A stretch of 33,795 bases of DNA from Clostridiaceae bacterium (GTDB lineage: Bacteria > Bacillota > Clostridia > Lachnospirales > Lachnospiraceae). The translations under genes and the position numbers were made by a program. Position 1 is the first letter of the stretch. Every line of letters begins with the position of its first letter. The notes under the pieces are model-generated. The model had not been told where the DNA came from and did not search any database. It saw only the letters and a program-made list of their open reading frames with translations. Below are positions 9,455 through 27,636 of the stretch, piece after piece. The stretch is from contig CAJSZV010000036.1 in the NCBI GenBank assembly GCA_910574345.1, positions 1 to 33,795 on the forward strand, in the 5' to 3' direction.

Positions 9455-9877
9455 CTATCCATCCAACGCACCATTAAACTTATAACCAATCCCCCATACC
9501 GTCAAAATATAAATTGGCCTCGCCGGATCTGGTTCGATCTTCTTTCTGATTCTATGGATCAGACTTACCACATTGTCTTCTGCACCCAGGTAGGGCAGAT
9601 TCCATACCTGTTCGTAGATTTGCTTTTTAGAAAATACTTGTTTGGGATGACTGGCTAATAAGTAGAGGATATCGAACTCATAATTGGTCAATTCAACATA
9701 GATGCCATCTCGTTTGAAAGTCCGGTATTTTAGATCGATCTCAATACCATTGTACCGTATGCTGTTGGTTGTAGAAGAATCATTTCTCATTTCACTCTTG
9801 TTCTTTTCTTTGAGAAATTGGAATAGCTCTTTAAAAGTACTTCCGTCATCATACAATATCATTAGCATTTTCTTCAT
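9455..9877 (-). CDS. Winged-helix OmpR-type DNA-binding protein lacking receiver
   Basis: 140 residues. The C-terminal ~95 residues are a Trans_reg_C winged helix: IRYNGIEIDLKYRTF, ELTNYEFDILYLLASHPKQVFSK, then the recognition helix NVVSLIHRIRKKIEP and wing WGIGYKFNG. The N-terminal ~40 residues are far too short for a response-regulator receiver and show no phospho-acceptor aspartate pattern. A GGAAGG site about eleven bases before the ATG supports this start, so it may be expressed as is. It is either a stand-alone winged-helix regulator or the remnant of a two-component response regulator; no histidine kinase gene is nearby. The adjacent broken MATE gene shows that this stretch has been decaying. 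Confidence 0.75.
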   Translation of the reverse strand: MKKMLMILYDDGSTFKELFQFLKEKNKSEMRNDSSTTNSIRYNGIEIDLKYRTFKRDGIYVELTNYEFDILYLLASHPKQVFSKKQIYEQVWNLPYLGAEDNVVSLIHRIRKKIEPDPARPIYILTVWGIGYKFNGALDG

Positions 9878-10435: not shown

Positions 10436-11170
10436 CTAATCCTGCCCTATATCCCCAAGCCACTTTTCCACACTGCTCTGGGCGCTGTCCGCCCCCGATC
10501 CGCTGACCGCAAGTCCCTCAAGAACCGTTGCTCCGCTTTCCAGCTCTGCAATGGTTCCCGGCGTTCCCGACAGCCCACTGCCACCGCTAGTACAGAATGG
10601 AGCAATGGTCTTTCCGCTGAAATCATAAGTATCAAAAAACGTGTACAGAATCCGCGGCATATCCCCCCACCAGATTGGATATCCCACATAAACAATCTCA
10701 TATTGCTCAAAATTCGTTATGCCGCCTTGTATAGCAGGACGGGCATCCGGGTCGTTCTGCTCCGCAGTTGCCCGTGTGGTGGAATCACTGTAGTTTAAAT
10801 CCTCCTCTGAATAGGGTTCCTGCGGCACAATCTCATAGATATCCGCCTCTTGCAGCCCTGCAAGGGTCTGCGCAACCGCTTTTGTATTCCCTGTAGCTGA
10901 AAAATATACCACCAGCGCCTTTACTTCCCCTCCTTCCGGGTCCCCCAATGACGGTTCCTCATCCGTTTCCAGCCCGTTTTCCTCCTGCACATCCGAAGAC
11001 GGCTGAGTTCCCTCTGTATTCTCTCCTTCCGTGCTTTTCTCCTCTGCCGCCTGCACGGATGCCTCCGGCGGGACGCTCCCGGACAAATCCTCTTCCTCCT
11101 TCCCGCTGCCGCAGGCAGCAAGGCCAAGTACCAATGCCAGTGTCACAAAAACAGTAAACAGTTTCTTCAT
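10436..11170 (-). CDS. Flavodoxin-domain lipoprotein
   Basis: 244 residues with AGGAGG nine bases before the ATG. Residues 1-20 are a lipoprotein signal peptide ending in the lipobox LAAC (Cys20). A Glu/Ser/Gly-rich linker runs to about residue 80. A flavodoxin domain follows: the FMN phosphate loop SATGNT in VVYFSATGNTKAVA, then YPIWWGDMPRILYTFF and FCTSGGSGLSGTPGTI, which line the isoalloxazine site. Flavodoxins are one- or two-electron carriers and are normally cytoplasmic; the lipobox predicts attachment to the outer face of the membrane. It is the distal intact gene of a six-gene cluster with two other exported flavodoxins. The redox partners are unknown, and how FMN is loaded outside the cell is not shown by the sequence. 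Confidence 0.88.
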   Translation of the reverse strand: MKKLFTVFVTLALVLGLAACGSGKEEEDLSGSVPPEASVQAAEEKSTEGENTEGTQPSSDVQEENGLETDEEPSLGDPEGGEVKALVVYFSATGNTKAVAQTLAGLQEADIYEIVPQEPYSEEDLNYSDSTTRATAEQNDPDARPAIQGGITNFEQYEIVYVGYPIWWGDMPRILYTFFDTYDFSGKTIAPFCTSGGSGLSGTPGTIAELESGATVLEGLAVSGSGADSAQSSVEKWLGDIGQD

Positions 11171-11242
11171 AAATAAATTCCTCCTTTTTCGCCTGTTTAT
11201 AACAGTTCAGATACCCCTGAACCGTTGCGTCTATTTTTCCAT

Positions 11243-12172
11243 TCAATACCAGTCATGCTTCTCATTCCGGTCAAGTGCATTGATTTGCTCCATCTCGTCT
11301 GCCGATAAAGTAAAATGATACAACTCCATATTCTCCCTGATATGATTCGGATTGCTGGAACCAGGGATAACCACAACATTTTTTTGCAGATTCCAGCGGA
11401 GAATCACCTGTGCAGAAGACACCTGATGTTTTCCGGCAATCTTAGTGATTACCGGATCACCCAGCAGTTCTGCCGTATGCCCTCTGCCTCCCAATGGATA
11501 CCATCCCTGCACAACGATTCCCTGTTCCTGAATGAACGGAATAACATCATTTTCCTGATAATAGGGATGAATCTCATTCTGTATCAGCGCAGGAACCGTA
11601 TCTACCTGAGAAAGAAAATCTGTCAGTTCCTCTATATACCAGTTGGACAGACCAATAGAACGAATTTTTCCAGCCTCCACAAACTGTTCCATGGCTTTAT
11701 ATGCCTTTACATCATTTTCATCCGGATGATGTAACAGCATCATATCCACATAGCCAATATTCAGCCTGTCCAGACACGCCTGAATAGACTGCTCCGGATG
11801 TTCCATCTCGCTTCCAGGATATAATTTGGTAATCACAAACACATCTTCCCGTTCAATGATTCCCTCATCTATGGCCTGCCTGACAGCCTCCCCTATTTCT
11901 TGCTCATTCCCATACGCAGAAGCGGTGTCAATGAGACGCACGCCACTGGACAACGCTGTTTTTACAGAATTGATACATTCATCCCCATGAAGACTATAAG
12001 TTCCCAGACCATTGACCGGCATTTCATAGCCGCTGTTCAGCAGCACGGTCCTGGTCTCAAAATTAAATTCCGCTTTTACAGCTGTCCCATTTTTCCCCTG
12101 TCCACTTTTTCCATATACGGTTATAGCAAACAGCAGCAATAAAATAAGCGCGGCCCCAAAGGTTTTCTTCAT
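11243..12172 (-). CDS. Aldo/keto reductase with N-terminal signal anchor
   Basis: The ATG at 12172 is preceded by AGGAGG nine bases upstream and gives 309 residues; a longer frame to 12271 only reads into the neighbouring gene. Residues 4-20 are a hydrophobic segment (FGAALILLLLFAITVYG) after two lysines, so the enzyme is probably anchored or exported; no lipobox Cys is present. The AKR catalytic tetrad is complete: Asp82, Tyr87 in DTASAYGNE, Lys116 in ITKLYPG, and His148 (or His149) in LLHHP. GLSNWYIEEL and IPGSSNPNHIRENM are the expected NADP-site motifs. AKRs reduce aldehydes and ketones with NADPH. NADPH is not normally available outside the membrane, which makes the signal segment puzzling. 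It lies between the two flavodoxin lipoprotein genes. Confidence 0.87.
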   Translation of the reverse strand: MKKTFGAALILLLLFAITVYGKSGQGKNGTAVKAEFNFETRTVLLNSGYEMPVNGLGTYSLHGDECINSVKTALSSGVRLIDTASAYGNEQEIGEAVRQAIDEGIIEREDVFVITKLYPGSEMEHPEQSIQACLDRLNIGYVDMMLLHHPDENDVKAYKAMEQFVEAGKIRSIGLSNWYIEELTDFLSQVDTVPALIQNEIHPYYQENDVIPFIQEQGIVVQGWYPLGGRGHTAELLGDPVITKIAGKHQVSSAQVILRWNLQKNVVVIPGSSNPNHIRENMELYHFTLSADEMEQINALDRNEKHDWY

Positions 12173-12200
12173 CTCAATCCGCCTCCTTCCCCAATTTCCT

Positions 12201-13640
12201 CTATGAAAGTCCCAGTCCCAAAATCCACTGCTCCACCTCCATCTCTGCCTGCTCCATATGATCTCCGTCAAATGCGATTCCCTCTAAAACATTGGAATCC
12301 GAAATTATGTTCGCAATATCCTCATAACTTCCGCCTGCCCCATATCCCTGATGAGTACAAAATGGGACTACCGTTTTTCCTGAAAAATCATATTCCTGAA
12401 GAAATCCCCGAACCGCCTGGGGAATTGTTGCCGCCCATACCGGATATCCAATAAAAACAGTTTTGTAATCCTCCATGTTCAATGAGTCTTCTTTCAGTTC
12501 AGGAATGACTCCTTCTTTTATCTCTCTATGATTTTGCTCCACCGTTTCGTCAAAATCCGCCGGATACATGGTCCTGGTCTGAATCAGATGAATCCTTCCG
12601 CCCACCTCATTCTGTATCAGCCGGGCAGCATATTCTGTTATTCCATACCGTTCATTTCCCCTTACCATCATACTGGCAGAACTGTTGGCATCCGTTCCTT
12701 CCGGATATTCCGTATTTCCAACCCGTGAGAAATACGCAATCAATACATCCGAACCATTTCCCTGCTCCACGGGCCGGGCGGCCTGTTCCTTCTGATCCTC
12801 TATTGGAACCAGTTCCTGCTCCCTGAGCCATTCCTCCACTTTTGGCTGCGCCTGCAAAATATCGGCCCGGTAAATTCCAAGAGGTTCATATACAACTGCC
12901 GTCTCTGGCAAAGCACGCTCCAGTTCCCGCACGGTAGCGCCAATCCCGCCAGTTCCATGGGCACAGAAAGGAACCACCATTTTCCCGGAAAAGTCGTAGC
13001 TTTCCAGAAATGTGACCACTGGCATGGGAAGGGAACTCCACCAGTTAGGGAACCCGATAAATATGGTTTCATACTCATCAAATCCCTCCACCTGGGATTT
13101 TAACTCCGGTCTTGTTCCATGTGCCCTTTCCTCAGACGCCCTGTCCATACATTCGTTATAGTCACTGGGATAGCTTTCCACTGTCTGAATGGAAAACAGA
13201 TCCCCTCCTGTCTCCTGATGTATCCAGTCTGCAATCATTGCCGTGTTCCCCGGCTGTACCAGACTGGCCGAGCTTATTGCGTCCGTTCCATATCTGCTGG
13301 CATCTCCCATGGCCTCATAATGCTCCATAGCACTGGCCACCGCCCTATCCTGGTCTGTCACCACTGTATTATCCGCCCAGGTAAAATAAGCAATCAATGT
13401 TTTCTCATTGGATTGTTCCTCGCCTGCTGCCTGCATCATGCCCGTCCCTGATACCGTCCGGGCTGCAGCCTGGGTTGTATCTGTCCTAAGCACGTTTCCG
13501 GCTGCTGCCGGTGTTGTATCTGCCTCCGGCACAGCTCTCACGAAAGCCAGCCGTCCCTCTGTGGCCCCCGATGCCTGGGTACATGCTGTCAGACACACGG
13601 CGGCGGCCGACAGTATCCCCATTATCTTCCAAATCCTCAT
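12201..13640 (-). CDS. Double-flavodoxin-domain lipoprotein
   Basis: 479 residues; AAAGGAG lies ten bases before the ATG. The signal peptide ends in lipobox LTAC (Cys20), followed by an Ala/Thr-rich linker. Two flavodoxin domains occur in tandem: about 82-280 (TLIAYFTWADNT, FIGFPNWWSSLPMPVVTFL, FCAHGTGGIGATV) and about 295-479 (VLIAYFSRVGNTEY, FIGYPVWAATIPQAVRGFL, FCTHQGYGAGGSY). Both are of the long type in which the phosphate loop is followed by an insertion ending in a second GNT or GIT motif. Such fused pairs could hold two FMNs and pass electrons along one polypeptide. The gene is 28 bases upstream of the aldo/keto reductase. Function as an extracytoplasmic electron carrier is inferred from the lipobox. 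Confidence 0.87.
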   Translation of the reverse strand: MRIWKIMGILSAAAVCLTACTQASGATEGRLAFVRAVPEADTTPAAAGNVLRTDTTQAAARTVSGTGMMQAAGEEQSNEKTLIAYFTWADNTVVTDQDRAVASAMEHYEAMGDASRYGTDAISSASLVQPGNTAMIADWIHQETGGDLFSIQTVESYPSDYNECMDRASEERAHGTRPELKSQVEGFDEYETIFIGFPNWWSSLPMPVVTFLESYDFSGKMVVPFCAHGTGGIGATVRELERALPETAVVYEPLGIYRADILQAQPKVEEWLREQELVPIEDQKEQAARPVEQGNGSDVLIAYFSRVGNTEYPEGTDANSSASMMVRGNERYGITEYAARLIQNEVGGRIHLIQTRTMYPADFDETVEQNHREIKEGVIPELKEDSLNMEDYKTVFIGYPVWAATIPQAVRGFLQEYDFSGKTVVPFCTHQGYGAGGSYEDIANIISDSNVLEGIAFDGDHMEQAEMEVEQWILGLGLS

Positions 13641-13664
13641 AAATCTGTATCTCCTTTCGTTACT

Positions 13665-14426
13665 TTAATGGTCCCGCCGCCAGACAGGCGGCATGCATTC
13701 CGGCATGCCAAGTGTGCCTGCCAGACTTTCATGTGCGGTGGTGCGTCCGCTGCCGGCGCATACAGGTTTTCTATGTCCGCCCTGGCTTTTTAGTATCTTT
13801 CTCCCACAATAAGCCAGATAAATAAAGAATCCTGTCATCGCCAGATAATCCCCATAAAACAAAAGCCTTGACTCGCTGTAATCAAGAAACACAAATTCTG
13901 TCCGCAAAAAAAGATAAGTAACAATATCTCTTTTTAAAAAGACCCAGCCTCCATACATGGCAAGTCCTGCTGCCAGGAGCCTTAACCTCCCCATCCTTTT
14001 CTGCTGCCTTCCAAACATCCCAAAGACTATGCCCCAGTGCAGCCCCAGATGAACTGCCGTCAAAACAAAACTCCAGTAAGCCGCTGCCATATGAAGCAGC
14101 CTTCCCATCCTGGTCATTCCACGAATCGGCAAAAAGGAAAAAACATAGCGGGAAAGAATAACCGAACTTACCATCAAACCGATCATTCCCATAAGCAGCA
14201 GCATATTCACTGTCAAAGTCAAAGCCCGCATTCTGTCGTATCTCCCACGAAACAGACTCCTATACCACTTCCGGTTCATCACCTGATGTATAATAAAAAG
14301 TAAAAAAATTCCTGCTCCCGCCCATTCGTGAGCCGCCTCACCCCAGAGCTGATAACCCATCAGAAACAAAAGAAGAATCAGCATGGACAAGTCTATGGCC
14401 ATTTTCAAAAGCTGCCTTTTTTTCAA
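13665..14426 (-). CDS. Membrane protein, DUF4405 / cytochrome-b-like
   Basis: I place the start at a TTG codon (14426), since GGAGG lies seven bases before it; the longer frame to 14519 has no ribosome site and overlaps the upstream gene. The product has 253 residues with about six hydrophobic helices. Histidines within or near helices (AAHEWAGAG, FIIHQVMNR, LLHMAAAY, AVHLGLHWG) match the DUF4405 type, in which paired His could hold b-type haem. This would make it a route for electrons across the membrane to the exported flavodoxins (inference). The last ~35 residues, after KILKSQ, are encoded by a copy of the dispersed repeat (13674-13770), so the native C-terminus was replaced or extended. 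A palindrome sits in its promoter. Confidence 0.75.
   Translation of the reverse strand: MKKRQLLKMAIDLSMLILLLFLMGYQLWGEAAHEWAGAGIFLLFIIHQVMNRKWYRSLFRGRYDRMRALTLTVNMLLLMGMIGLMVSSVILSRYVFSFLPIRGMTRMGRLLHMAAAYWSFVLTAVHLGLHWGIVFGMFGRQQKRMGRLRLLAAGLAMYGGWVFLKRDIVTYLFLRTEFVFLDYSESRLLFYGDYLAMTGFFIYLAYCGRKILKSQGGHRKPVCAGSGRTTAHESLAGTLGMPECMPPVWRRDH
13674..13770. repeat. Hairpin-rich dispersed repeat, short copy
   Basis: It shares with 15164-15384 the order CCGCC-loop-GGCGG, GGCGGCATGCATTC, then GCCAGACTT, CATGTG, GGTGGTGCGTCCG, CGCATAC and GGTTT. The loops and some stems differ: CCGCC AGACA GGCGG here against CCGCC GATTA GGCGG there. A GCATGC...GCATGC stem is specific to this copy. It overlaps the 3' end of the membrane-protein gene. 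Confidence 0.75.
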
Positions 14427-14450
14427 TTTCCAACCTCCACTATAGGTTTT

Positions 14451-14465
14451 CTGACACAGTGTCAG
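14451..14465. promoter_or_regulatory. Perfect 15-bp palindrome, probable operator
   Basis: CTGACACAGTGTCAG is a perfect dyad around one base, 25 bases upstream of the TTG start at 14426. TAATAC next to it on the minus strand could serve as a -10 element, which would put the dyad over the transcription start. This form (TGACAC-N-GTGTCA) is typical of TetR-family operators. No TetR gene is in the window. Confidence 0.6.
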
Positions 14466-14490
14466 TATTACATCAAAAATATATAGCCGT

Positions 14491-15078
14491 TCACTCCAAC
14501 CCAGAGATTTCCATTTCACCCGATATCTCCCCGATCATTTCCCCTCCGGATACCACCTTGCCCAGTTCATATAAAGAGCCGTTGGGATTATAGCTTCCAT
14601 AAAACAGTACCACATCCCCCCATGGCTCATAATAAGCCAAAGTTCCCACACTGCCGTCTGTAGACGGAGCATTTGTCACATCCAGTTTCTCCGGCGGGTA
14701 AAAAGTCTTTTCATTATTACTGAAATCCTCATTCTCCACAGTCATTGGAAGCTGTTCATAAAGCTCCCTGGCCGCTGTACTGTCATTTAGCGCAAAGGTG
14801 ATTACATTTCCGTTTGCCTTTATCTGAATCATTCTTGCGCTGCTGTCTGTCTCTGCCATTTGCGTACCGCTCCTTTTCGTTTCATCTATATTCTCTGTTT
14901 CCGCAGTCACCTCAAAATAGCTTTCCATATCCTCTGTCTCCCCATCCGTCTCAAAACGGCTTTCCGTCTCTGTAACCTCTGTTACAGAAACATTTCCCGT
15001 ATCTGCTTTCTGACGCTGGCAGCCGGCCAGCGCTCCCGCAAGGCAAAGCAGCATTCCCGCTTTCTTCCATGTCTGCAT
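14491..15078 (-). CDS. Cyclophilin-like-fold lipoprotein
   Basis: 195 residues. AAAGGAG lies thirteen bases before the ATG, a rather long spacing. The signal peptide ends in lipobox LAGC (Cys20). A Thr/Glu-rich linker runs to about residue 80. The C-terminal ~110 residues match the bacterial cyclophilin-like fold (Cyclophil_like): IQIKANGNVITFALNDSTAARELYEQLP, FYPPEKLDV and the glycine-rich GTLAYYEPWGDVVLFYGSY. This family lacks proline isomerase evidence and often accompanies flavodoxins and aldo/keto reductases in Firmicute gene clusters; its biochemical role is unsettled. Here it is predicted on the cell surface, like its neighbours. The palindromic operator follows, before the membrane-protein gene. 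Confidence 0.82.
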   Translation of the reverse strand: MQTWKKAGMLLCLAGALAGCQRQKADTGNVSVTEVTETESRFETDGETEDMESYFEVTAETENIDETKRSGTQMAETDSSARMIQIKANGNVITFALNDSTAARELYEQLPMTVENEDFSNNEKTFYPPEKLDVTNAPSTDGSVGTLAYYEPWGDVVLFYGSYNPNGSLYELGKVVSGGEMIGEISGEMEISGLE

Positions 15079-15163
15079 AATCCGTCTCTGTCTCCTTTCT
15101 GATGTATATCCGCAGCCTGACCGGACCTTGCCAGGCAGGCTTGTTTTTCTGCTTACTGTGAAA

Positions 15164-15384
15164 GTTCAGCGCTCCGGCGCTGAACTGTGCGAAAACGGGG
15201 TCACGAAGTGACATATTCCACTCCCGTTTTCTGCACATCCGCCGCCGATTAGGCGGCATGCATTCTGGGTTGCTGTGTGCCTATGGCACACGTTCAGCAA
15301 CGACCGAAACGGAGCGTAGACCCCAATGCGCCCGCCAGACTTACATGTGAGGTGGTGCGTCCGATGCCGGGCGCATACTGGTTT
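15164..15384. repeat. Hairpin-rich dispersed repeat, long copy
   Basis: About 220 bases made almost entirely of stem-loops on the + strand: GTTCAGCGC-TCCG-GCGCTGAAC (15164-15185); AAAACGGG...CCCGTTTT enclosing GTCAC-GAA-GTGAC; CCGCC-GATTA-GGCGG; GTTGCTG and CAGCAAC enclosing GTGTGCC-TAT-GGCACAC; and GCGCCC...GGGCGC. The right end reaches the stop codon of the gene ending at 15383. A shorter diverged copy is at 13674-13770 in the same orientation. Both are probably members of a larger genomic family. Confidence 0.78.
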
Positions 15385-16192
15385 ACCGGAGTAAGCCAAG
15401 GCTCGAAAGCCATGGCTGGATTCCGCTCACGTCATTGACTCTGCGCCCATCTGTCACATTGGAATCCGGACAGCTTCTGCGGATATCCCGGACGCTGGTT
15501 TCCACACCGCTGCCTCCGCTGGTGCAGAAAGGAACAATGGTCTTGCCGCTGAGGTCATAGGTTTCCAAGAAAGTAAACACCGGCATAGGCGCTGTCCCGT
15601 ACCAGATCGGATAACCCACATAAACCGTATCATACTGGTCCATATGATCCACCAGGGCAGTAATAGCGGGCCGTGCCTTTGTATCCAGCTCCCGCTCTGC
15701 ACGGCTTAAGGTTGCCTCATAAGATGAAGGATAGCTTTCTATCGCTTCGATCTTCACTATCTGCGCCCCGGTCAATTCATGAATCCTCTCTGCCGCTCTC
15801 TCCGTTGTCCCTGTACGGGAAAAATATACAATCAACTGATTACCTGAAATCGCGTTCTTCTCCTCCTTCTGTGTCTGGGCTTCCCTTGCCACCACCACAC
15901 CGTTTTCTACCCAGGCGCCATCCCTGTTGACCTGATATCCGTCCGGTGTAACCGTATCTGCTGCCATCCAGCCCTCACTGTCAAAATAATAGCATTCAGC
16001 GGTTCCGTCCTGATTTCCATCCAGCCACTGCCATCCGGACTTTGCATAGGTTCCGTCCTCATAGTCATACCACCAACGGTTTTGATTTGATCCGGTACCT
16101 GTCTTCCATCCTGCGGCCAAAGCCGTCATCCCAAAACACAGGCTCATCAAAGCACTGACCAGACACAAAAATATCCATCTTTTCCTTTTCAT
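15383..16192 (-). CDS. Secreted flavodoxin with cell-wall-binding-like N-terminus
   Basis: The ATG at 16192 has AAGGAG five bases upstream and gives 269 residues. Residues 1-27 are a classical signal peptide ending ALAAG. Residues about 29-98 hold choline/glucan-binding-like repeats rich in Trp, Tyr and Gly (NRWWYDYEDGTYAKSGWQWL, CYYFDSEGWMAADTVTPDGYQVNRDGAW split by short turns). Residues about 119-269 are a flavodoxin domain: VYFSRTGTTERAA phosphate loop, YVGYPIWYGTAPMPVFTFLE and FCTSGGSGVETSV. The combination predicts an electron carrier attached to the cell wall. It is first in the exported redox cluster and has its own promoter at 16256-16285. The stop codon falls at the edge of the hairpin repeat, so the native C-terminus may have been trimmed. 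Confidence 0.87.
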   Translation of the reverse strand: MKRKRWIFLCLVSALMSLCFGMTALAAGWKTGTGSNQNRWWYDYEDGTYAKSGWQWLDGNQDGTAECYYFDSEGWMAADTVTPDGYQVNRDGAWVENGVVVAREAQTQKEEKNAISGNQLIVYFSRTGTTERAAERIHELTGAQIVKIEAIESYPSSYEATLSRAERELDTKARPAITALVDHMDQYDTVYVGYPIWYGTAPMPVFTFLETYDLSGKTIVPFCTSGGSGVETSVRDIRRSCPDSNVTDGRRVNDVSGIQPWLSSLGLLR

Positions 16193-16255
16193 TTTTTCTC
16201 CTTCTTTCTTCTCACAGTAATAAAAAGCGCAAACACGCCCTTTATCTTTACACAC

Positions 16256-16285
16256 ATTTTAGAACAACTTATTAAACAAGTCCAA
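16256..16285 (-). promoter_or_regulatory. Sigma-A promoter of exported flavodoxin cluster
   Basis: On the minus strand, TTGGAC (16285-16280) and TAAAAT (16261-16256) are separated by 18 bases, about 64 bases before the start at 16192. It is the best housekeeping-type promoter in the region and sits between the terminator of the catabolic cluster and the first flavodoxin gene. Confidence 0.6.
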
Positions 16286-16440: not shown

Positions 16441-17283
16441 TTATTCATACCACTCCGGCGATTTTTTATATGTCTGATAATCTTTCACATCATGACCGAA
16501 AAACACAACGCCCTTTTCCTGCTCTGCTATTTTCCTGCACTTTTCAATGCTTTCTCCAAATTCTTTTGGACAGGCACACATTCCCGGAAGCATTGCGGGT
16601 GGGCCGTAATTCGCGGCATTATAAACAGCATCTGACGGGAAAACAGCGGTTCCAAAGCCCTCTGTACGCACGACTAATCCCATGGTTCCCGGCGTATGTC
16701 CCGGCAGGTGGATCAGTTCCAGATCTTCTGCCAGCTTTACATCCCCTTTCACCAGCCGGAAGCTGATTCCTCCAAGGCCGTTAAACTCATGGCGGACATA
16801 GCCGTCATATCGATACCTTATTTCCTCACAGTCATAAATATTCGAGAGCAGAAATCCATGGCGGGCTTCCTCCTCCTGAACCATGATATCTTTTCCCGCT
16901 TTTGTCCCGCAAAACAGCCGCAGATTCCCGGCATGGTCAAAATGCATATGAGACAAGATGATTTGATCGATGTCCTCCACGGATAATCCCAGTTCCGCCA
17001 GCCGATCCTTCAATCCGCGAAACCGCCTTACCGGATACTCTTTCAGAAGATTTTCAGGCCAGCGAAGCGGATACTCATCATCAATCCCCGTGTCATAGAG
17101 AACATTTCCCAAAACCGGATGCTGCACCAGAACACAATAACAGGGAATGGGCCATACAATTCTTTTATGCGCGTCTTCCAGCTGTTCTCTCTCCGTCAAG
17201 GTAACGTGCTCAGCCTTGTACGCGTCAAAATCTCCCATATCCAAAAGGGTAAAGCGGGTTTTCCTCACTTTCTGTTTCGTCAT
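16441..17283 (-). CDS. Metallo-beta-lactamase-fold hydrolase, AHL-lactonase-like
   Basis: 280 residues; GAGGAG lies seven bases before the ATG and overlaps the region just past the upstream stop. The binuclear zinc ligands are complete: HxHxDH at His112, His114, Asp116, His117; His196 in HLPGHTPGT; Asp218 in FPSDAVYN; and His264 in FFGHD. The length and layout fit the AiiA/AttM lactonase branch. The family opens lactones, including acyl-homoserine lactones, but membership does not fix the substrate. As last gene of a catabolic cluster it more likely opens a cyclic ester intermediate, or a lactone substrate, than quenches quorum signals (inference). No signal peptide. Confidence 0.88.
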   Translation of the reverse strand: MTKQKVRKTRFTLLDMGDFDAYKAEHVTLTEREQLEDAHKRIVWPIPCYCVLVQHPVLGNVLYDTGIDDEYPLRWPENLLKEYPVRRFRGLKDRLAELGLSVEDIDQIILSHMHFDHAGNLRLFCGTKAGKDIMVQEEEARHGFLLSNIYDCEEIRYRYDGYVRHEFNGLGGISFRLVKGDVKLAEDLELIHLPGHTPGTMGLVVRTEGFGTAVFPSDAVYNAANYGPPAMLPGMCACPKEFGESIEKCRKIAEQEKGVVFFGHDVKDYQTYKKSPEWYE

Positions 17284-17299
17284 ACACCTTCTCCTCAGA

Positions 17300-19210
17300 T
17301 CAGATCGTTGTTCCCAATACTGCGCCGCGGTAAATTGCTTCTACTGCGTTTCCGGCTTTTGCCGCGTCTCCTACCGTGACCACTTCCGCCTGGATTCCCT
17401 TTAATTCTTCCGCCAGCGTCTGATTCGACCTGGTTCCAAATGCCAGGATAATGCTGTCAAAGCCCCTAAGGCTGGTTAACTGGCTGTTCTTTTCATAATC
17501 CACTCCATCCGGACAGACCGCTTTCACCGTAGCAGAGGTAATCATATCCACACCATTGGCACGCAGCCGTTCAAGAAGCAGCTTCTGGGTTGCCGGATGG
17601 TCATCCATGGCAATTTTGTCCCTCATCTCGATGATCGTGACCTCATATCCATGTTCTGCCATAAAATCCGCCGTCTCTGCCCCCTGAAGGCCGCCGCCCA
17701 GAATAAGTGCTTTGTTTCCCGGCGCGATCTTTCCAAGAAGGATTTCCCTGTTGGCGATGCATCCGGAATCCTTAAGGCCGGGAATGCCGGGAACCAAAGG
17801 GGTGCCGCCTGTGGCGATCACCACGATGTCCGGATTTAAGGATTCGATGAAAGCTCTGTCTGCTTTTGTATGAAAACGCATCACAACGCCATGCTTTTTA
17901 CACATATTGCTGTAATACACACAGGCTCTTGCCAGCATCTGCTTGTGGGGAGGAATCGCCGCGATCCTAAACTGTCCGCCGGGATAGGCGCTCTGCTCAA
18001 CCAATTCAACCTGATGCCCCCGGGCGGCCGCAATCCATGCCGTTTCCATCCCTGCGATTCCGGCGCCGACTACCACCACTTTCTTTTTCGTTTCTGCCGG
18101 TTCTATCTTAAGCACCGTCTCTCTCATGGAAAATGGATTTACCATACATCCCCGAAATTGTCCGCCGTGGCCATAGCTGCCATAACACCGCTGTAAGCAT
18201 CCCACACAGGGGCAGATCTCTTCTTCCTTCCCCGCTGCCGCTTTGTTGACAAAGGCAGGGTCCGCAAACAACGATCTTCCCAGGGTAATAAACTCCACAT
18301 TCCCTTTGCGCAAAAGGCTCTCCGCATACTCCGGCTCGTTGATTCTTCCTGCCACCGCAACAGGAATCCCCACTACCTTGCGGATTTCCTCTGCCGGGTC
18401 CGCGTTATACCCTGTTTTTACGGCCGCCGGGGCAATCCCGTAGCCTACGCCGTTCATTCCGCCGGATACATCGATCAAATCCGCTCCCGCTTCTTCAAGA
18501 AGCATCGCCAATGCGGCAGAATCCCTTCCCAGATTGCCATCCGATACCATATCATCGCCATTTAGGCGGACACTGACCGGATAGTCATTTCCGCAGGCTT
18601 TCTTGATTCCCTCTATGATCATCACCGGAGCCTTTGCCCGTCCGGTAATTCCTCCGCCGAATTCATCAGTTCTCCGATTTGCGCTGGGAGAAACGAAATC
18701 ATTTAACAGATATCCATGGGAGCAGTGTACTTCCACCATATCAAAGCCTGCTTTTTTTGCCCTGACAGCGCCGGCAATAAACGCATCAATCAAATCATAT
18801 ACATCCTGAGTGGTCATCTCATAGGGGGTTACCCTGTCTGTCTGTTTCATAATCGCAGAAGGCGCCATTACACGTACCATAGAACGCCTTCCTCCATGCT
18901 GAAGCTGGAGACAGATTTTCGCGCCATGTTCATGTACCGCATCTGCCAGTTTTTTCAGGCCGGGAATTTTACCATCATCCGTCACAGAAATCTGATGATC
19001 GGATGATCTTCCGTCCTCCGTTACAAAGCAATACTCCGTGATGATCATTCCAACGCCTCCGTCCGCGCGGGCTGTCAGATACGCGATTAACGGATCGGAG
19101 ATGGTTCCGTCCGGATTGCCCAAAGCTGCGGACATAGGAGCCATAATCGCACGGTTTTTCAGTTCCAGGGAACCTATTTTCGCTGGTGATAAAAGCTTTT
19201 TGTACTTCAT
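17300..19210 (-). CDS. Old-yellow-enzyme/2,4-dienoyl-CoA-reductase-like flavoenzyme
   Basis: The ATG at 19210 has GGGAGG seven bases upstream, giving 636 residues, the family's usual length. Residues 1-~330 are an FMN-binding TIM barrel (NRAIMAPMSAALG, then HCSHGYLLNDFVSP with the RTDEFGG loop). A [4Fe-4S] motif CxxCxxxC-x12-C occurs near 340-357 (CVGCLQRC ... GC). A second FAD/NAD part follows, with GAGIAGMETA and LGGGLQGAETADFM. This is the architecture of FadH and of BaiCD/BaiH, which reduce conjugated C=C bonds of enoyl-CoA or steroid enones using NAD(P)H. The reaction here is therefore probably reduction of an unsaturated, perhaps CoA-linked, substrate. It is 17 bases upstream of the lactonase-like gene. 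Confidence 0.93.
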   Translation of the reverse strand: MKYKKLLSPAKIGSLELKNRAIMAPMSAALGNPDGTISDPLIAYLTARADGGVGMIITEYCFVTEDGRSSDHQISVTDDGKIPGLKKLADAVHEHGAKICLQLQHGGRRSMVRVMAPSAIMKQTDRVTPYEMTTQDVYDLIDAFIAGAVRAKKAGFDMVEVHCSHGYLLNDFVSPSANRRTDEFGGGITGRAKAPVMIIEGIKKACGNDYPVSVRLNGDDMVSDGNLGRDSAALAMLLEEAGADLIDVSGGMNGVGYGIAPAAVKTGYNADPAEEIRKVVGIPVAVAGRINEPEYAESLLRKGNVEFITLGRSLFADPAFVNKAAAGKEEEICPCVGCLQRCYGSYGHGGQFRGCMVNPFSMRETVLKIEPAETKKKVVVVGAGIAGMETAWIAAARGHQVELVEQSAYPGGQFRIAAIPPHKQMLARACVYYSNMCKKHGVVMRFHTKADRAFIESLNPDIVVIATGGTPLVPGIPGLKDSGCIANREILLGKIAPGNKALILGGGLQGAETADFMAEHGYEVTIIEMRDKIAMDDHPATQKLLLERLRANGVDMITSATVKAVCPDGVDYEKNSQLTSLRGFDSIILAFGTRSNQTLAEELKGIQAEVVTVGDAAKAGNAVEAIYRGAVLGTTI

Positions 19211-19230
19211 TATTTTTCCTCCCAACCTTC

Positions 19231-20169
19231 TTATACCCGATACTCAAGGAGGCAGTTATCCACAATCGCCTTTCCCGTTTCTTTATTGATCATCCGGTAG
19301 ATCAGTTTCCCTTCCTCCACCTTCCAGGCCAGGAATTTCACCGGAGTGTTGGGGAAAGTCACGCTCCTAAGCTGGGTTGCCACATGGAGCACTCTCTCCG
19401 GCTCATAGGGAATAACCGCCTGGATCGCTAGTCTGGCCGCAAAACCTGCGGAACAGAGTCCCGGCATAAACGCACCTTTATACCCATACCCTTTTCCAAC
19501 TTCCGGGTCGATGTGGGTGGTATAGGTATCACCAGTCAGTCGGTAGAGGGCCGCGAGATTATCGGCAATATGGTCATCACACTGGAAATCCGGTTCTCTG
19601 TCCGGATAGTTCATCTTATTGGAAACATATTTCGGCCTCCCGTTATTTCCGAATGCCGCGATCAGATGCTGGCTTCTTAAGGTACATACAGGATTTCCGG
19701 CAATATCATACATTTCCATCTTACACTGGTTCACCACGCCCTTTTCTCCCCAGTCAAAAATCTCTTCCACGCTGTCTTCCGTGAGAATCTTTCCGCACAG
19801 CGGGTCAATGGGTTTGTGCATGATAAAATCAACCCCCATATGGAGCCGATTGGGAATATATCCGTCCAGCGCGTCAATGATCAGATCACCGGGGATTTCG
19901 TTTGGCGCATAGGGCACCCTTCTCTGAGGCTGCATCGTAATGGCATTGAGATAGGCGGTGAGGACAAAGGAGGGAAGAGCTTTTAGTCCCTGGGGATATC
20001 CCTCCCATACATAGGGAAGATCATCTTTCGAGCAGCCTACCCCTAATGCATACAAAATAACATCTCTCCATGTATACTCAAAAAATCTCGGACCAAGGCC
20101 CTTTCCGATAATGGAATCAAAATCCGGGGTTGGGCGGGTATGCCAGTCAACTTTTTCAATATTTGCCAT
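19231..20169 (-). CDS. MaoC / hydratase-2-like protein
   Basis: 312 residues, the length of double-hotdog type-2 enoyl-CoA hydratases. The second hotdog carries the hydratase-2 signature in altered form: LTGDTYTTHIDPEVGKGYGY, with the catalytic Asp (214) and His (219) kept and the usual Asn-Pro replaced by Tyr-Thr. The first half (residues 1-~170) is the non-catalytic hotdog that binds the acyl chain. Known members add water to trans-2-enoyl-CoA giving (R)-3-hydroxyacyl-CoA. It lies between the carboxymuconolactone-decarboxylase-like gene and the enone reductase. A CoA-linked enoyl substrate would fit the two CoA-transferases in the same cluster. Confidence 0.85.
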   Translation of the reverse strand: MANIEKVDWHTRPTPDFDSIIGKGLGPRFFEYTWRDVILYALGVGCSKDDLPYVWEGYPQGLKALPSFVLTAYLNAITMQPQRRVPYAPNEIPGDLIIDALDGYIPNRLHMGVDFIMHKPIDPLCGKILTEDSVEEIFDWGEKGVVNQCKMEMYDIAGNPVCTLRSQHLIAAFGNNGRPKYVSNKMNYPDREPDFQCDDHIADNLAALYRLTGDTYTTHIDPEVGKGYGYKGAFMPGLCSAGFAARLAIQAVIPYEPERVLHVATQLRSVTFPNTPVKFLAWKVEEGKLIYRMINKETGKAIVDNCLLEYRV

Positions 20170-20193
20170 GATTATTTCCTCCTTGTTCTATGC

Positions 20194-20976
20194 TTATTGT
20201 TTTTCTGCTTCAACTTCCCTGATTGCTTCTTTTAAAATCGGAACCCCCATGGTTACTGCGTGAATCCCAAGTGTGCTGACGATATGGAGCACATCCATAA
20301 TCTCATTTATACTTGCCTCATAATCCAATGCCCTGGAAATATGATACCGGATCTGTTCCGGATGCAATGTAACTGGAGCTGCGTGAACCGCGATATAAAT
20401 TAACTCTTTTTCCTTTGGAGACAAGGGGCCGTTATTCCACGGGCCTTCCTCAAACTCGGCAAATGTCTCAAAATATTCGGGATCCAGCTTTAAAATATTT
20501 TCTTTTTCTTCCGACCAGTATCCGTTATGTTTTTCCATATAGTCCTTTTTCAACGCCTTTTGACTGTCTGTAAGTTCTCTGGCAGCAATGCTGATTCCTC
20601 TGTGCTGAAGTTCATCTACCAAAAGAGGAACACTCATCTCATGGCTGGTAACCCCTACCATACAGGTAATCTCCAGGACTTCAAGGATTTCTTTTACATC
20701 AATTCCCAACTGAAGAGCATGCTTCATATGATTTTTCAGCCCATTGGCATTTAAACAGCCGGTTACACTGTCAATGGCAATACAGATAAATTTCCTCATC
20801 CGGATATCCAGATAATTCCGTTTATCGGGCACGGAAGAATATCTGGCATAAGAAGCCACGATACTGGGATCCAGTTCCAGAATGGTATCCCACATGGCGC
20901 TCCATTTCCACGCCCCTCTTGCGTCAATAAACTTCTGTTTCGCTTCTTCCTGATATGCAGACCACTTTTTTTCCAT
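20194..20976 (-). CDS. Carboxymuconolactone-decarboxylase-family protein, two domains
   Basis: I choose the ATG at 20976, with GGGAG eight bases upstream, over that at 20991, which abuts the previous stop without a ribosome site; this gives 260 residues. Two CMD/AhpD-type helical domains are present, about 45-135 (RMRKFICIAIDSVTG ... HMKHALQLGIDVKEILEVL) and about 165-255 (LSPKEKELIYIAVHAA ... HISRALDYEASINEIMDVLHIVSTLG). Neither has the CxxC of AhpD peroxidases, so peroxidase activity is unlikely. CMD proteins decarboxylate gamma-carboxymuconolactone or act in poorly defined steps of aromatic and other catabolism. It follows the esterase gene without a gap. Confidence 0.85.
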   Translation of the reverse strand: MEKKWSAYQEEAKQKFIDARGAWKWSAMWDTILELDPSIVASYARYSSVPDKRNYLDIRMRKFICIAIDSVTGCLNANGLKNHMKHALQLGIDVKEILEVLEITCMVGVTSHEMSVPLLVDELQHRGISIAARELTDSQKALKKDYMEKHNGYWSEEKENILKLDPEYFETFAEFEEGPWNNGPLSPKEKELIYIAVHAAPVTLHPEQIRYHISRALDYEASINEIMDVLHIVSTLGIHAVTMGVPILKEAIREVEAEKQ

Positions 20977-20991
20977 ATTGTTTTCTCCCAT

Positions 20992-21813
20992 TTAAAAATC
21001 ATAGATCTTCTTTTCCGGATAGCGTTCCACCGGAAGCCATTCCAGAAGCCGGTACAGATTGCGATCCCAAAATGCCCAGTCATGGGCTCCTTCATCCTCA
21101 AGATAATCCACCGAGATGCCTGCCTGGACTAAAAATTCATGATACGCCCGATTGCATTCTAAAAGCGGGTCATCCTTTCCTATTGCCATAAAAATCTTTG
21201 GCAATAGCTTTCTTGCTTTTACAACATCCATAGCCAGCTTATGGTAATCCGCCGGGCTTCCGTTTAATTCCTCTTCTTTTCCAAATACAGCTTCAAAAAA
21301 CGACCGCCTCTCCAGCAGTCCGGCCGGTGTACCCTCCCCTTGGGGATAGTTGTCCGCCAGAGCTGCCGTTGACAATGCACCTACATACCCGAAGGTATCC
21401 GGATAACGAAATGCACTGTAGAACGCTCCCAATGCTCCCATGGAAAGCCCGCCCACAAAGGTGTCTTCACGCTTATCCGACAGCCGAAACATGGTTCTTG
21501 TAAAGTTAACCAACTCTTCCCCCACAAATCTGCCATAATGATTATATTGGATATCATTATAGAAGCTGTTTTCACCGGCAGGGAGAATCACTGCCAGATT
21601 CCGGTCCTTTGCCCATTTAAAAATCCGAGTGCTGGTCAGCCAATCGTATTCTCCGCCATAAAGCCCGTGAAAAAGATATAATGTTTTTAAAGGCTTCTCT
21701 TTGCTTCTAAGGCATTCTCCATCCATCTCCCGTTTATCAATGGGAATCACTGCCATAAAATTCACCATTCGTTTTAGTGACTCTGAAAAGAAATTTGCCT
21801 TTACAATTGCCAT
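20992..21813 (-). CDS. Alpha/beta-hydrolase esterase (EstA/EsterD type)
   Basis: The start ATG at 21813 (MAIVKANFF) gives 273 residues; a frame reaching 21906 would read through an intergenic hairpin. The ribosome site is a weak AGAGG. The nucleophile elbow is GGLSMGALG with Ser124; Asp214 or Asp215 in GKDD and His244 in EGAHDW complete the triad. Layout and the LFHGLYGG oxyanion motif resemble tributyrin esterase EstA and S-formylglutathione hydrolase. It probably cleaves a short-chain ester, perhaps the entry step of the pathway (inference). There is no signal peptide, so it acts on an imported substrate. The next gene starts directly at its stop. Confidence 0.9.
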   Translation of the reverse strand: MAIVKANFFSESLKRMVNFMAVIPIDKREMDGECLRSKEKPLKTLYLFHGLYGGEYDWLTSTRIFKWAKDRNLAVILPAGENSFYNDIQYNHYGRFVGEELVNFTRTMFRLSDKREDTFVGGLSMGALGAFYSAFRYPDTFGYVGALSTAALADNYPQGEGTPAGLLERRSFFEAVFGKEEELNGSPADYHKLAMDVVKARKLLPKIFMAIGKDDPLLECNRAYHEFLVQAGISVDYLEDEGAHDWAFWDRNLYRLLEWLPVERYPEKKIYDF

Positions 21814-21842
21814 ATTTTTACCTCTTTTCGCTCTTCCATATA

Positions 21843-21876
21843 CAATACCGGCATGCCTCCAGGAATGCCGGTATTG
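21843..21876 (-). other. Stable hairpin inside the catabolic operon
   Basis: CAATACCGGCAT (21843-21854) pairs without mismatch with ATGCCGGTATTG (21865-21876) over a 10-base loop. It lies between the SDR stop and the esterase start. No T run follows on the minus strand, so it is more likely an mRNA-processing or stability element than a full terminator; partial attenuation is possible. Confidence 0.65.
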
Positions 21877-21883
21877 CCTTCCT

Positions 21884-22717
21884 TTATAAGTAGCAGCCAC
21901 AGTCAACAGTCAGCACTTCACCGTTAATGCAGCGTGACATATCGCTGGCAAGGAAAAGAACCGCATAGGCCTGGTCAATCTCCCATGGATGCACGGTGCG
22001 GACGGTACGCGCGTTGCGTACCTCATTCATCACACCCTCCGCCAGAGTCTGGGGACCGCCGTCATCATGGGCATAAGCGGTAGGGCTGGGCGTATGTCCC
22101 GGAGCAACGGCATTGCACCGGATACCGGTTCCCGTACACCGGATAGCTACGTTCTTGGTCAGAGTGTTTAGCCCTCCCTTGGTAGAACAATAGGCAGCTC
22201 CGCACATGGGCCGTCCGCCATTGGAAGAAGAAATGTTGATAATATTTCCGCTGTCTTTTTTCAGGAAATACTTTACTGCTTCACGGCAAAGATACAGGGG
22301 CCCCTTCATATTGGTGTCTACGACCTGATCGATGATATCATCGCTGACCGCGTCAATGGTGATCAGCTCACCCTTTCCTGCGTTGTTGACCAGCACATCA
22401 ATGTCTCCATAAGCCTCCAGGGCTTTTTCAATCACCTTTTTACAATCCTCCGGTTTGGAAGAATCTGCCGCGATTCCGCAGATCTCTCCGCCGGTCTTCG
22501 CTTTAATGTCAGCGATAGCCGCATTCAATTTTTCTTCTCCCCGGGCAGTCACAAAGACCTTTGCTCCCTGCTCTACCATCACCTCTGCCATTTTCTTTCC
22601 CATGCCATAGCTGGCTCCGGTCACGATAACAACTTTCCCTTCCATCATTTTGTTGAAATTCTTGATGGTAAAGCCCTCCTCAAAACGGCATGTTTCGTCA
22701 ATTCGATGTCCTGACAT
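21884..22717 (-). CDS. Short-chain dehydrogenase/reductase (SDR)
   Basis: 277 residues with AGGAGG nine bases before the ATG. Classical SDR motifs are all in place: TGASYGMG (33-40) for the cofactor, NNAG (111-114), and the active site Ser163/164, Tyr176 and Lys180 in YCSTK. The sequence ends in the usual INGEVLTVDCG. An extra ~24 N-terminal residues precede the Rossmann fold. These enzymes interconvert alcohols and ketones with NAD(P). The absence of an Asp at the end of strand 2 (VTARGEEK) suggests NADP rather than NAD. It is likely the intact counterpart to the frameshifted SDR on the other side of the permease gene. Confidence 0.92.
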   Translation of the reverse strand: MSGHRIDETCRFEEGFTIKNFNKMMEGKVVIVTGASYGMGKKMAEVMVEQGAKVFVTARGEEKLNAAIADIKAKTGGEICGIAADSSKPEDCKKVIEKALEAYGDIDVLVNNAGKGELITIDAVSDDIIDQVVDTNMKGPLYLCREAVKYFLKKDSGNIINISSSNGGRPMCGAAYCSTKGGLNTLTKNVAIRCTGTGIRCNAVAPGHTPSPTAYAHDDGGPQTLAEGVMNEVRNARTVRTVHPWEIDQAYAVLFLASDMSRCINGEVLTVDCGCYL

Positions 22718-22760
22718 AAAATTTTCCTCCTGAAATGAATATAGTATTACTTTGATTCTG

Positions 22761-24080
22761 TTAAATCCCTACAGCTACGCAAATGATTGTTGCCACAACG
22801 GTTACACATAAGGGCACAAGCACAGATACGGCAAAGCTGTGACGGTATGCGTCCTTGTGAGTCAGCCCCAACAGGTCATAGACCAGAAACAGGCCGGAAG
22901 AGTGGGGCAGGGTATCCAGAGAACCGGAGGCAATGGCCACCAGTCTGTGGAGAACCGGCAGATTTGCTCCGGATGCCATAAACGTGGGCGTCATCGTTTC
23001 ATACATAATCCTTTGTCCTGAGGAAGAACCGCCGGCAATGGCACATACGATACAGGTTACCACTACGGCTAACAAAAGCGGATTCATATTCAGGCCAAGA
23101 GCCCAGTCAATAATATCCTGATAAGCCGGGGTCGCCTTGACGACTGCGCCAAACCCAAGGATGGCCGCAATCCCGCCGATGGATGCAACGCCGCTTGTCA
23201 TCCCCTCAGTGAAAAGCTTCAGCCATTTTACCTTTCCAAAAAACCGGTCCGCGTTCAGCACAATGACCATAACGCTTCCGATTACCATGGCCATGACCGC
23301 GATCAGAGTCGCGTTCACTCCCTTGTGGCTGCCGATGACAATAATGCCGATCAGGCAGATAATGGTTAAAAACCCTTTCCATGCTGCCGGCAGCTGGCTT
23401 GCGTCAATCTCATAATTTTTCGGGTCCACGTTGGCCGGATAACTCCACTCCTCTTTCCGTTCCCGGGCTTTTTTGGAAGCCCATTCCCCATACAACGCGC
23501 AAAGCACAAACATGACAATGCCGCAGATAATGCCCATCACCGGCGCCGCGTTTAACGAGGTTCCCAGATATTCCGTGGCAACCAGATTGGACAGCTGGGG
23601 AGAGCCTGGCAGACAGGTCATGGAAAAGGTAGACGAGCCGGCACTGAAGCAGATAACGGTCAAATGCCTTGGCAGATTCGCCTTTTTCAGCATGGTGTAT
23701 AAAATCGGAGCCGCTGCGTAAATCACCACAAACAGGCTGATTCCCCCATATGTCAAAATGCCTACGATAATAATCCCTACTAAAATCACATGTCCGGTTC
23801 CAAACCACTCCGTAAACTTATTGCCAATAGCAGTGGCGCATCCGGAGATATCCATCAGCTTGGCGTAGAACGCAGAACTGACAAAAAGCAGCATATAACT
23901 GGTGAACGCGCTTGCGTAACCCGGCACAAAATCACCGGCAAGAGTTTGATAAATCGGCATGCCGTTAAAAATAATGGCAATCAAAGCGCCGGCCATGGCA
24001 AGGGGCAAAGCACCCAGCCCCTTATACGCAAAGATAATCAGAAAAACAATTGCCAAAATAAGCCCCAAAATTCCCAACAT
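22761..24080 (-). CDS. GntP-family permease
   Basis: 439 residues with about 12 hydrophobic segments. The sequence starts with LGLILAIVFLIIFAYKGLG and contains FVVIYAAAPILYTMLKKANLP, GSPQLSNL and the C-terminal GSLDTLPHSSG that typify GntP/gluconate:H+ symporters and their CitMHS-like relatives. The family imports hydroxy-carboxylates such as gluconate or citrate-like acids with protons. AAGGGG precedes the ATG by eight bases. Placed inside the catabolic cluster, between two SDR genes, it most likely imports the substrate, which would then be a polar organic acid rather than a steroid (inference). Confidence 0.9.
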   Translation of the reverse strand: MLGILGLILAIVFLIIFAYKGLGALPLAMAGALIAIIFNGMPIYQTLAGDFVPGYASAFTSYMLLFVSSAFYAKLMDISGCATAIGNKFTEWFGTGHVILVGIIIVGILTYGGISLFVVIYAAAPILYTMLKKANLPRHLTVICFSAGSSTFSMTCLPGSPQLSNLVATEYLGTSLNAAPVMGIICGIVMFVLCALYGEWASKKARERKEEWSYPANVDPKNYEIDASQLPAAWKGFLTIICLIGIIVIGSHKGVNATLIAVMAMVIGSVMVIVLNADRFFGKVKWLKLFTEGMTSGVASIGGIAAILGFGAVVKATPAYQDIIDWALGLNMNPLLLAVVVTCIVCAIAGGSSSGQRIMYETMTPTFMASGANLPVLHRLVAIASGSLDTLPHSSGLFLVYDLLGLTHKDAYRHSFAVSVLVPLCVTVVATIICVAVGI

Positions 24081-24098
24081 TGCTTTTGTCCCCTTTTC

Positions 24099-24879
24099 TT
24101 ATCGTTTCTGCTGCCATGCGGTATCGCAGTCTTGTGCCAGGAATTTTCCTCCGCTGCACTCCAGCACCACTCCATCGATATAGGACGACATATGGGATCC
24201 CAGGAACAAAGCCACGTTGGCAACCTCCTCCGGCTCTATGTAAAGCAAAATTCTTCGCCACTCTCTTCACATCTTCCTCACTGCGCCCTGCCGCTGCCTG
24301 CATGGCCGTATTGATCGTGCCGGGAGCCACGGCATTGACGCGGATGCCAAAAGGCGCGAATTCCGCCGCTGACATACGGGTCAGCCCGTTGATTCCATAT
24401 TTGCTGGTGCAGTACGCGCTGCGGTACATGGGAGGCATAAGCCCTCCGAAGGAAGCCACATTGATAATCACGCCGCCCCCCTGCTCCTTCATCACCCGGC
24501 CTGCGGCCTGAGTCCCTACGAAATAAGAATTTAAGTTGGTTCTCATAATCTGGTTCCATTCCTCCAGTTCCAGTTCCAGAATGGATTTCACCACGGTAGT
24601 AGCCGTATTATTAATCCAGATATCAATCCTCCCAAAATCCTTCTTCACTTCATCCACAAAGCCATAGAGCCTGTCCGAGTCGCTGACATCCACACTTCTC
24701 ACATAAAGGTCAAATCCTTTTTCCTTAAACTCTGCCCTGGCCTTATCCAGCTTTGCCTGAGATCTGGAGCAGATGGCAACCTGGCAGCCTTCCTTCGCGA
24801 ATGCTTCTGCCATGGCATATCCTATTCCCTCAGAACCGCCGGTAATGGCAACTACCTTCCCCGTTAATTTTAAATCCAT
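24099..24879 (-). pseudogene. SDR gene with frameshift near 24236
   Basis: The N-terminal ~215 residues are a good SDR: TGGSEGIG (13-20), INNTA, and YCTSK active site. Near 24236-24244 the frame shifts by one base: AKNFALH continues, in another frame, as IEPEEVANVALFLGSHM and ends DTAWQQKR at a TAA at 24099-24101, 18 bases before the permease start. The family normally reads ...RIGEPEEVA... here, so an eight-base deletion between two AGA triplets would explain the change. Without correction the first frame runs on to 24022, into the permease gene. It is either a real recent mutation or a sequencing error. If intact it would be an alcohol/ketone oxidoreductase. Confidence 0.85.
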
Positions 24880-24893
24880 AACTCGCCCTCCTT

Positions 24894-25712: not shown

Positions 25713-25725
25713 GGTCTCCTCCCTA

Positions 25726-26328: not shown

Positions 26329-26340
26329 GCCGTATTCTCC

Positions 26341-27567: not shown

Positions 27568-27620
27568 GTTTTCTCTCCTTTTCTTTAATTTGTGTTTTTT
27601 ATTTCTGTTCTTTATAAAGT

Positions 27621-27636
27621 GCAACTTGCATGCCAA
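27621..27636 (-). promoter_or_regulatory. Sigma-54 (-24/-12) promoter, internal
   Basis: Minus strand TTGGCATGCAAGTTGC: GG and GC with exactly ten bases between, close to the consensus TGGCAC-N5-TTGC. It precedes the intact CaiB-type gene by 54 bases. TGTGC/TGTCA half-sites at 27651-27730, inside the 3' end of the previous gene, are upstream of it and suit an activator. Confidence 0.85.

Follow-up and report, generated by a model that had tools for sequence, protein, structure and literature searches.

What could an aldo/keto reductase (AKR) be doing outside the cell, surrounded by flavodoxins that also appear to be exported? AKRs are generally regarded as NAD(P)H enzymes of the cytosol. The question is raised by a gene cluster in the stretch of DNA analyzed here, referred to as the window, which corresponds to positions 1-33,795 (33,795 nucleotides) of contig CAJSZV010000036.1 (assembly GCA_910574345.1, Clostridiaceae bacterium); all coordinates count from the window start. 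In the list of open reading frames of the window, six genes (F, E, D, C, B, and A, in this order) occupy the minus strand at 10436-16192. Three of their products, all of the exported type, share four Flavodoxin_4 domains, and the other three contribute the Pfam domains Cyclophil_like2, DUF4405, and Aldo_ket_red (Table 1). In our view, the cluster probably encodes an extracytoplasmic flavin electron chain, in which electrons would pass from D to C, from there to A and F, and finally to the exported AKR, B, which would reduce an external carbonyl compound. More tentatively, B may represent a new class of AKRs that act outside the cell and draw on flavodoxin, not on free NADPH, the flavin electrons from DUF4405 recharging, or replacing, the dinucleotide held by the AKR. 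We see the footprint of such a class in the recurrent fusion and fission of flavodoxin and AKR domains and in the glycine that all tested exported rows have where the NADPH-phosphate lysine would be.

Table 1. Genes of the cluster and motifs encoded within them, with Pfam match values in parentheses.
Feature	Position	Strand	Description
F	15383..16192	-	Exported Flavodoxin_4 (2.2e-35), no flavinylation insert; start resembling a signal peptide, followed by Choline_bind_2 repeat (4.2e-8)
E	14491..15078	-	Cyclophil_like2 (4e-27) lipoprotein, Cys20
D	13665..14426	-	DUF4405 (1e-9) membrane protein, probable cytochrome b; invariant His33, His47, His112, His126, His130 (numbered from the TTG start)
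C	12201..13640	-	Twin Flavodoxin_4 lipoprotein, two stretches (6.1e-44), Cys20
DAISSAS flavinylation-type motif	13263..13283	-	First flavodoxin domain of C
DANSSAS flavinylation-type motif	12672..12692	-	Second flavodoxin domain of C
B	11243..12172	-	Exported-type AKR, Aldo_ket_red (2.5e-48), N-terminal hydrophobic segment
IPGSSNPNH	11342..11368	-	In B; place of the NADPH 2'-phosphate-binding Lys/Arg, here Gly/Asn/His
A	10436..11170	-	Flavodoxin_4 (1.6e-43) lipoprotein, Cys20, no flavinylation insert; 72 bases separate it from B, which lies upstream

Export was judged by simple sequence-pattern rules and not by SignalP. According to these rules, a lipobox with Cys20 is found in A, C, and E, and a hydrophobic N-terminal segment in B, D, and F, B itself being devoid of a lipobox. 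The same rules, when applied to the 25 other genes of the window, returned no lipobox (0/25) and a single comparably hydrophobic start (1/25), namely, that of the gene at 22761-24080. A preliminary description of this DNA, made from the sequence alone, had reported four flavodoxin domains encoded behind signal peptides by three genes, which Pfam and the signal patterns bear out: the two proposed Cys20 flavodoxin lipoproteins are A and C (with E sharing this lipobox), and the wall-binding-like region is the Choline_bind_2 repeat of F. Its remaining assignments hold as well, since the cyclophilin-like lipoprotein is E, the signal-anchored AKR is B (a lipobox being present in 24 of the 34 rows checked in its clade), and the DUF4405-type membrane protein with several His is D, for which six helices were modeled. 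The genes from E to A are tightly packed, with gaps of 64 bases between E and D (from the TTG start of D), 24 between D and C, 28 between C and B, and 72 between B and A; the gap between F and E measures about 300 bases. The probable start of D is the TTG at 14426, seven bases past a GGAGG. Operon limits were set by gene spacing, because promoter-like sites were no commoner than in shuffled sequences (9 versus a mean of 9.4); terminator-like sites numbered 9 versus 5.6.

In the proposed chain, D would be a two-haem DUF4405 cytochrome b that moves electrons across the membrane, as suggested by the helices and histidines seen in its sequence and model. C would serve as a fixed two-flavin relay, its motifs and insertions pointing to two FMN molecules attached covalently by the single ApbE of the genome. 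A, tethered by its lipid anchor, and F, with its wall-binding-like region, are both without the insertion and would hold FMN non-covalently and pass the electrons on. B would then take electrons from flavodoxin and reduce an external aldehyde or ketone, a coupling that is supported by the domain fusions described below. It is proposed that B probably works with a dinucleotide that it retains as a bound cofactor and that flavodoxin recycles, and not with free NADPH, because its catalytic tetrad and nicotinamide-site residues are kept and the lysine for the NADPH phosphate is lost. E may be an accessory part of the flavodoxin/AKR proteins, to which it is linked by fusions. The direction of flow, the substrate, and the loading of the chain with FMN and haem are what we infer from these data.

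Support for the view that exported AKRs and flavodoxins belong together comes from relatives, a coupling that the preliminary description had overlooked, as it had the flavinylation insertions of C. Matches to B at E values up to 1e-70 were obtained in 36 of 299 genomes sampled within the family and in 7 of 398 sampled across the phylum, the genome of the window being part of both sets. In a tree of 58 AKR domains, 36 rows, three of which come from one locus, form a single clade that includes B (support 100/100); 21 of them are exported, 13 are fused behind a flavodoxin, and 2 have no signal call. The label "fused to flavodoxin" requires 9 changes on this tree, at least 6 of which fall on starred branches. 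Among the 34 exported or fused rows, a lipobox is present in 24 and, ahead of the first domain, a hydrophobic segment in 9; the remaining one, L173, could not be judged since its frame begins inside its flavodoxin, but it was still counted among the 34 and among the 13 fusions. In addition to the 13 fusions, 13 further clade members have a flavodoxin within 2.5 kb (in one case the neighbor is itself a fusion), and 10 have neither. One of these 10, at L180:6365-7846, is an exported-type fusion of Cyclophil_like2 and AKR, and fusions of flavodoxin with Cyclophil_like2 also occur in relatives. DUF4405 is encoded within 6 kb of 7 of the 36 rows, in one case on the other strand. The genome of the window itself encodes a second AKR of the clade, a lipoprotein located 663 bases from a flavodoxin lipoprotein (L113). 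In the phylum-wide search, three loci from other families were inspected, and two of them, L200 and L202, each from a different family, encode flavodoxin-AKR fusions. The fusion L189, which is the same gene as L160, has a twin-arginine-like signal at its start, which would permit export with a bound cofactor. No flavinylation motif was seen in the flavodoxins that are fused to AKRs, of which that of L173 lacks the part concerned.

The best solved match of B is 1vp5, and B shares with the 2,5-diketo-D-gluconate reductase-like AKRs that this structure represents the AKR domain and the catalytic Asp, Tyr, Lys, and His. In the four exported AKRs first aligned, Asp82, Tyr87, Lys116, and His148, which we take to be the catalytic tetrad, are invariant, as are Ser176, Asn177, Gln198, Glu280, and Asn281, presumably dinucleotide contacts. 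This intact tetrad is also compatible with the main rival explanation, in which the same chain runs in reverse: the exported AKR would be a dehydrogenase of an external sugar, alcohol, or aldehyde, and electrons would travel via flavodoxin and DUF4405 into the quinone pool of the membrane. AKR chemistry is reversible, and genes resembling iron-type alcohol dehydrogenases, SDRs, and hydrolases were seen by eye to recur nearby. However, the genome is rich in FMN_bind proteins, and the one that was scanned is an FMN_bind/FAD_binding_2 protein, a kind known to consume electrons outside the cell; on balance, we consider a reversed flow unlikely.

B differs from the 2,5-diketo-D-gluconate reductase-like AKRs in being of the exported type, in belonging to a clade that is often fused to flavodoxin, and in its cofactor site. 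Where 1vp5 reads IPKTVRRER, the Lys and Arg residues of which we assume to bind the 2'-phosphate of NADPH, B reads IPGSSNPNH, with Gly/Asn/His in place of Lys/Arg/Arg. The place of the lysine is occupied by Gly in 34/34 rows of the exported clade, whereas the 22 outside rows have Lys (17/22), Gly (4/22), or Ala (1/22); the four outside rows with Gly led us to reject the exchange as an exclusive mark of exported AKRs. An extra residue in the GGRG loop is present in 34/34 exported-clade rows and in 0/22 outside rows. The two clade members without a signal call, L193 and L194, were left out of these comparisons, and row L079 4111, called exported by the crude rule, was counted with the outside group, since it clusters with cytosolic sequences and its extension appears to be an artefact of start-codon assignment. 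The simplest reading would be that B is a working AKR that gave up its NADPH selectivity, is located where no free NADPH is expected, and is physically tied to flavodoxin. Alternatively, the exported AKR might act independently on NADH from lysed neighbors, the Gly site reflecting NADH use and the flavodoxins serving other partners. The Lys-to-Gly (K232G) and Arg-to-His positions are reportedly those at which 2,5-diketo-D-gluconate reductase was engineered for NADH use, and the invariance of the five presumed dinucleotide contacts in four members also fits this idea. Against it speak the fusion to flavodoxin in 13 of 36 clade members and the repeated changes of this label on the tree, and we regard this alternative as quite improbable.

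At the start of the proposed chain stands D, which is the only DUF4405 match of its genome. Its five histidines (Table 1) are invariant in an alignment of D and 42 relatives, comprising 43 of the 46 candidate rows after three short ones had been left out. Simple hydropathy gives too low a number of helices, with 3 segments in D and 5-6 in DUF4405 fusions, and the helix count was therefore taken from the predicted model, which has six long helices and a mean pLDDT of 87. D thus combines a DUF4405 domain, six helices, and the four conserved central histidines of this type of protein, with five histidines invariant in total. A Foldseek search of the model against solved structures gave no confident match, and no claim on the fold, such as a likeness to known di-haem membrane cytochromes, is made, since the VIA rows for D include both cytochromes and ion channels, the latter with the higher scores. 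In another DUF4405 member, haem b has been reported (Huang et al. 2024, PMC11334425), and D is a probable cytochrome b. The last 26-50 residues of D (13668-13823) match C8, C17, and C21 of the same genome at 44-68% identity, which suggests that the gene overlaps a dispersed repeat at its 3' end.

MsrPQ repairs oxidized envelope proteins in Gram-negative bacteria. The chain might likewise mend oxidized envelope proteins, with DUF4405 in the role of MsrQ, and DUF4405 proteins are indeed described as being arranged like MsrQ in PMC11334425. However, no methionine sulfoxide reductase domain was detected among the six proteins, the neighboring genes of relatives having been scanned in part, and this explanation appears to us very improbable.

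The pairing of DUF4405 with exported flavodoxins is conserved. In 43 DUF4405 rows picked by similarity to D, with the window as one row, one broken gene counted twice, and loci at contig edges counted as misses, a flavodoxin of any type was present within 4 kb in 33, an exported one in 29, and an exported motif-bearing one in 14, as judged by the crude signal rule; no flavodoxin was present in 10 rows and only an unexported one in 4. Within the same distance, Cyclophil_like2 was found in 6/43 rows with a home-made profile, and apbE in 1/43. Some relatives contain DUF4405 proteins fused to flavodoxin. Single proteins at L093:6426-8702 and L099:8046-10253 consist of DUF4405, an FGE-sulfatase-like domain, and Flavodoxin_4, with a further hydrophobic segment (residues 240-258) between the first two; since this segment follows the six helices, we infer that their flavodoxin lies outside the membrane. 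A lipoprotein at L074:10421-11863 combines an FGE-like domain with a flavodoxin, without DUF4405. The extracytoplasmic flavin redox chain suggested in the preliminary description is well supported, by the exported flavodoxin near 29 of 43 DUF4405 genes, by the DUF4405-flavodoxin fusions, and by PMC11334425; orthologues that consistently lack signals and the membrane gene were not seen. The two purposes that it suggested, extracellular electron transfer and envelope reduction, are candidate roles.

Two kinds of flavodoxin are encoded in the cluster. In each domain of C, an insertion after strand 1 and before helix 1 holds the DAISSAS or the DANSSAS motif, whereas in A and F the strand runs straight into the helix. 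According to PMC11334425, ApbE flavinylates an [S/T]GA[S/T]-like motif, the residue that is flavinylated in Flavodoxin_4 proteins encoded near apbE lies in an insertion at the strand 1/helix 1 place, and flavinylation of two such proteins by ApbE was confirmed in vitro. Compared with the described motif, the motifs of C fit this pattern with Ser in the place of Gly. Because insertion and motif match the described place, two covalently attached FMN are predicted for C, and loosely bound FMN for A and F. In a set of 119 flavodoxin domains from fetched loci, the motif was present in 29 of 94 exported and in 1 of 25 non-exported domains, a difference for which p = 0.003 serves only as a guide, given the relatedness of the rows and the crudeness of the export rule. 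The sole motif-bearing non-exported row, L119, is located at a contig start, begins inside the motif region, and falls within a motif clade. The AlphaFold model of the second domain of C (mean pLDDT 92.5) matches the Flavodoxin_4 structures 4ici and 4j8p and the FMN-bound 3klb. The flavodoxin alignment comprised 50 of 89 domains from relatives and the 4 window domains. The two domains of C fall into different supported clades of the flavodoxin tree; tandem duplication was therefore rejected, and C appears to have arisen by fusion of two paralogues. The tree also gives no support for A as a direct split from fused flavodoxins, so that only a functional pairing of A with B is proposed. Other exported-type motif-bearing flavodoxins are joined to esterase or alpha/beta hydrolase domains (L131:856-2517 and L122:2866-4452). 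That the exported flavodoxins merely bind external FMN for uptake is barely credible: A and F would suit this idea in having no covalent attachment site, but the covalent-type motifs of C, the His-rich D, and the fusions to AKR or DUF4405 in relatives favor electron transfer.

Taken as a whole, the genome holds, in addition to DUF4405, 29 FMN_bind matches, one Cyclophil_like2 match (E), and one ApbE, and on these grounds the host is equipped for flavin-based reactions outside the membrane. The ApbE protein has a lipobox-like start and is encoded not on the window contig but on C10, where, within about 10 kb (G000:C10:25835-35653, L167), a triple FMN_bind protein, Hpre_diP_synt_I, and an FMN_bind/FAD_binding_2 protein are also encoded. 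The link of apbE to such clusters, raised in the preliminary description, was thus absent from this contig but present in two relatives, L011 and L079, whose clusters include apbE. In L011 (Lachnospiraceae bacterium strain X68), apbE, Cyclophil_like2, DUF4405, and several exported flavodoxins form one run, and a 916-residue exported-type protein (L011:4678-7425) comprises two Big_2, three Flavodoxin_4 (with the motif in the middle one only), and one Cyclophil_like2 domain. The presence of apbE in a genome was uninformative as a discriminating test (18/18 versus 14/17 genomes, with G013 among the 18 on account of a truncated gene). No FMN exporter was found among the six genes, the search having covered these genes and the apbE region.

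Parallels exist to several known systems. Glucose-fructose oxidoreductase is likewise exported and holds on to its nicotinamide cofactor, but it belongs to another family and, to our knowledge, has no flavodoxin partner. An exported flavinylated carrier is shared with the Listeria-type flavin-based extracellular electron transfer system, the domains and membrane proteins of which differ. The closest likeness is to the flavinylated Flavodoxin_4/DUF4405 clusters of PMC11334425, with which the present cluster shares the motif-bearing insertion between strand 1 and helix 1, export, the adjoining DUF4405, and a genomic ApbE; exported flavodoxins beside DUF4405 are in this sense an already published kind. 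It differs in its twin-domain flavodoxin, its two exported flavodoxins without an attachment site, its exported AKR, and the absence of apbE or an FMN transporter among the six genes. PMC11334425 contrasts flavinylated exported with unflavinylated cytosolic Flavodoxin_4 proteins, a contrast that is qualified by a single cluster with exported flavodoxins both with and without the site; AKRs are not mentioned in its main text. Within the collection of papers covered, a literature search returned no report of exported AKRs or of flavodoxin-AKR links. What is new here is the twin flavinylation-type flavodoxin, the presence of both kinds of exported flavodoxin in one cluster, and above all the exported AKR.

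As to the remaining genes of the window, a long run on the minus strand upstream of the cluster (16441-32893) encodes an MBL-fold protein, a BaiCD-like flavoenzyme (a call below the NCBIfam cutoff), an esterase, two SDRs, HpcH/HpaI, two CoA_transf_3 proteins, a 3-hydroxyisobutyrate dehydrogenase-like protein, and DUF6282, and looks like a catabolic operon. It is adjoined by a Sigma54_activat regulator on the plus strand (30803-32893). At a threshold of 0.001, no Pfam domain was matched by the hydrophobic protein encoded at 22761-24080. Just downstream of A, the gene at 9455-9877 encodes a short protein that matches Trans_reg_C but no receiver domain.

If the proposed chain is correct, the AKR would stand at the end of a membrane-linked chain as its terminal enzyme, chemistry at the cell surface would be powered in a new way, and the flavodoxin-AKR lipoprotein offers a single polypeptide that is open to direct test. 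With a clade of exported AKRs and its repeated fusions to flavodoxin, flavin-based extracytosolic metabolism would come to include the surface carbonyl chemistry of gut-type bacteria.

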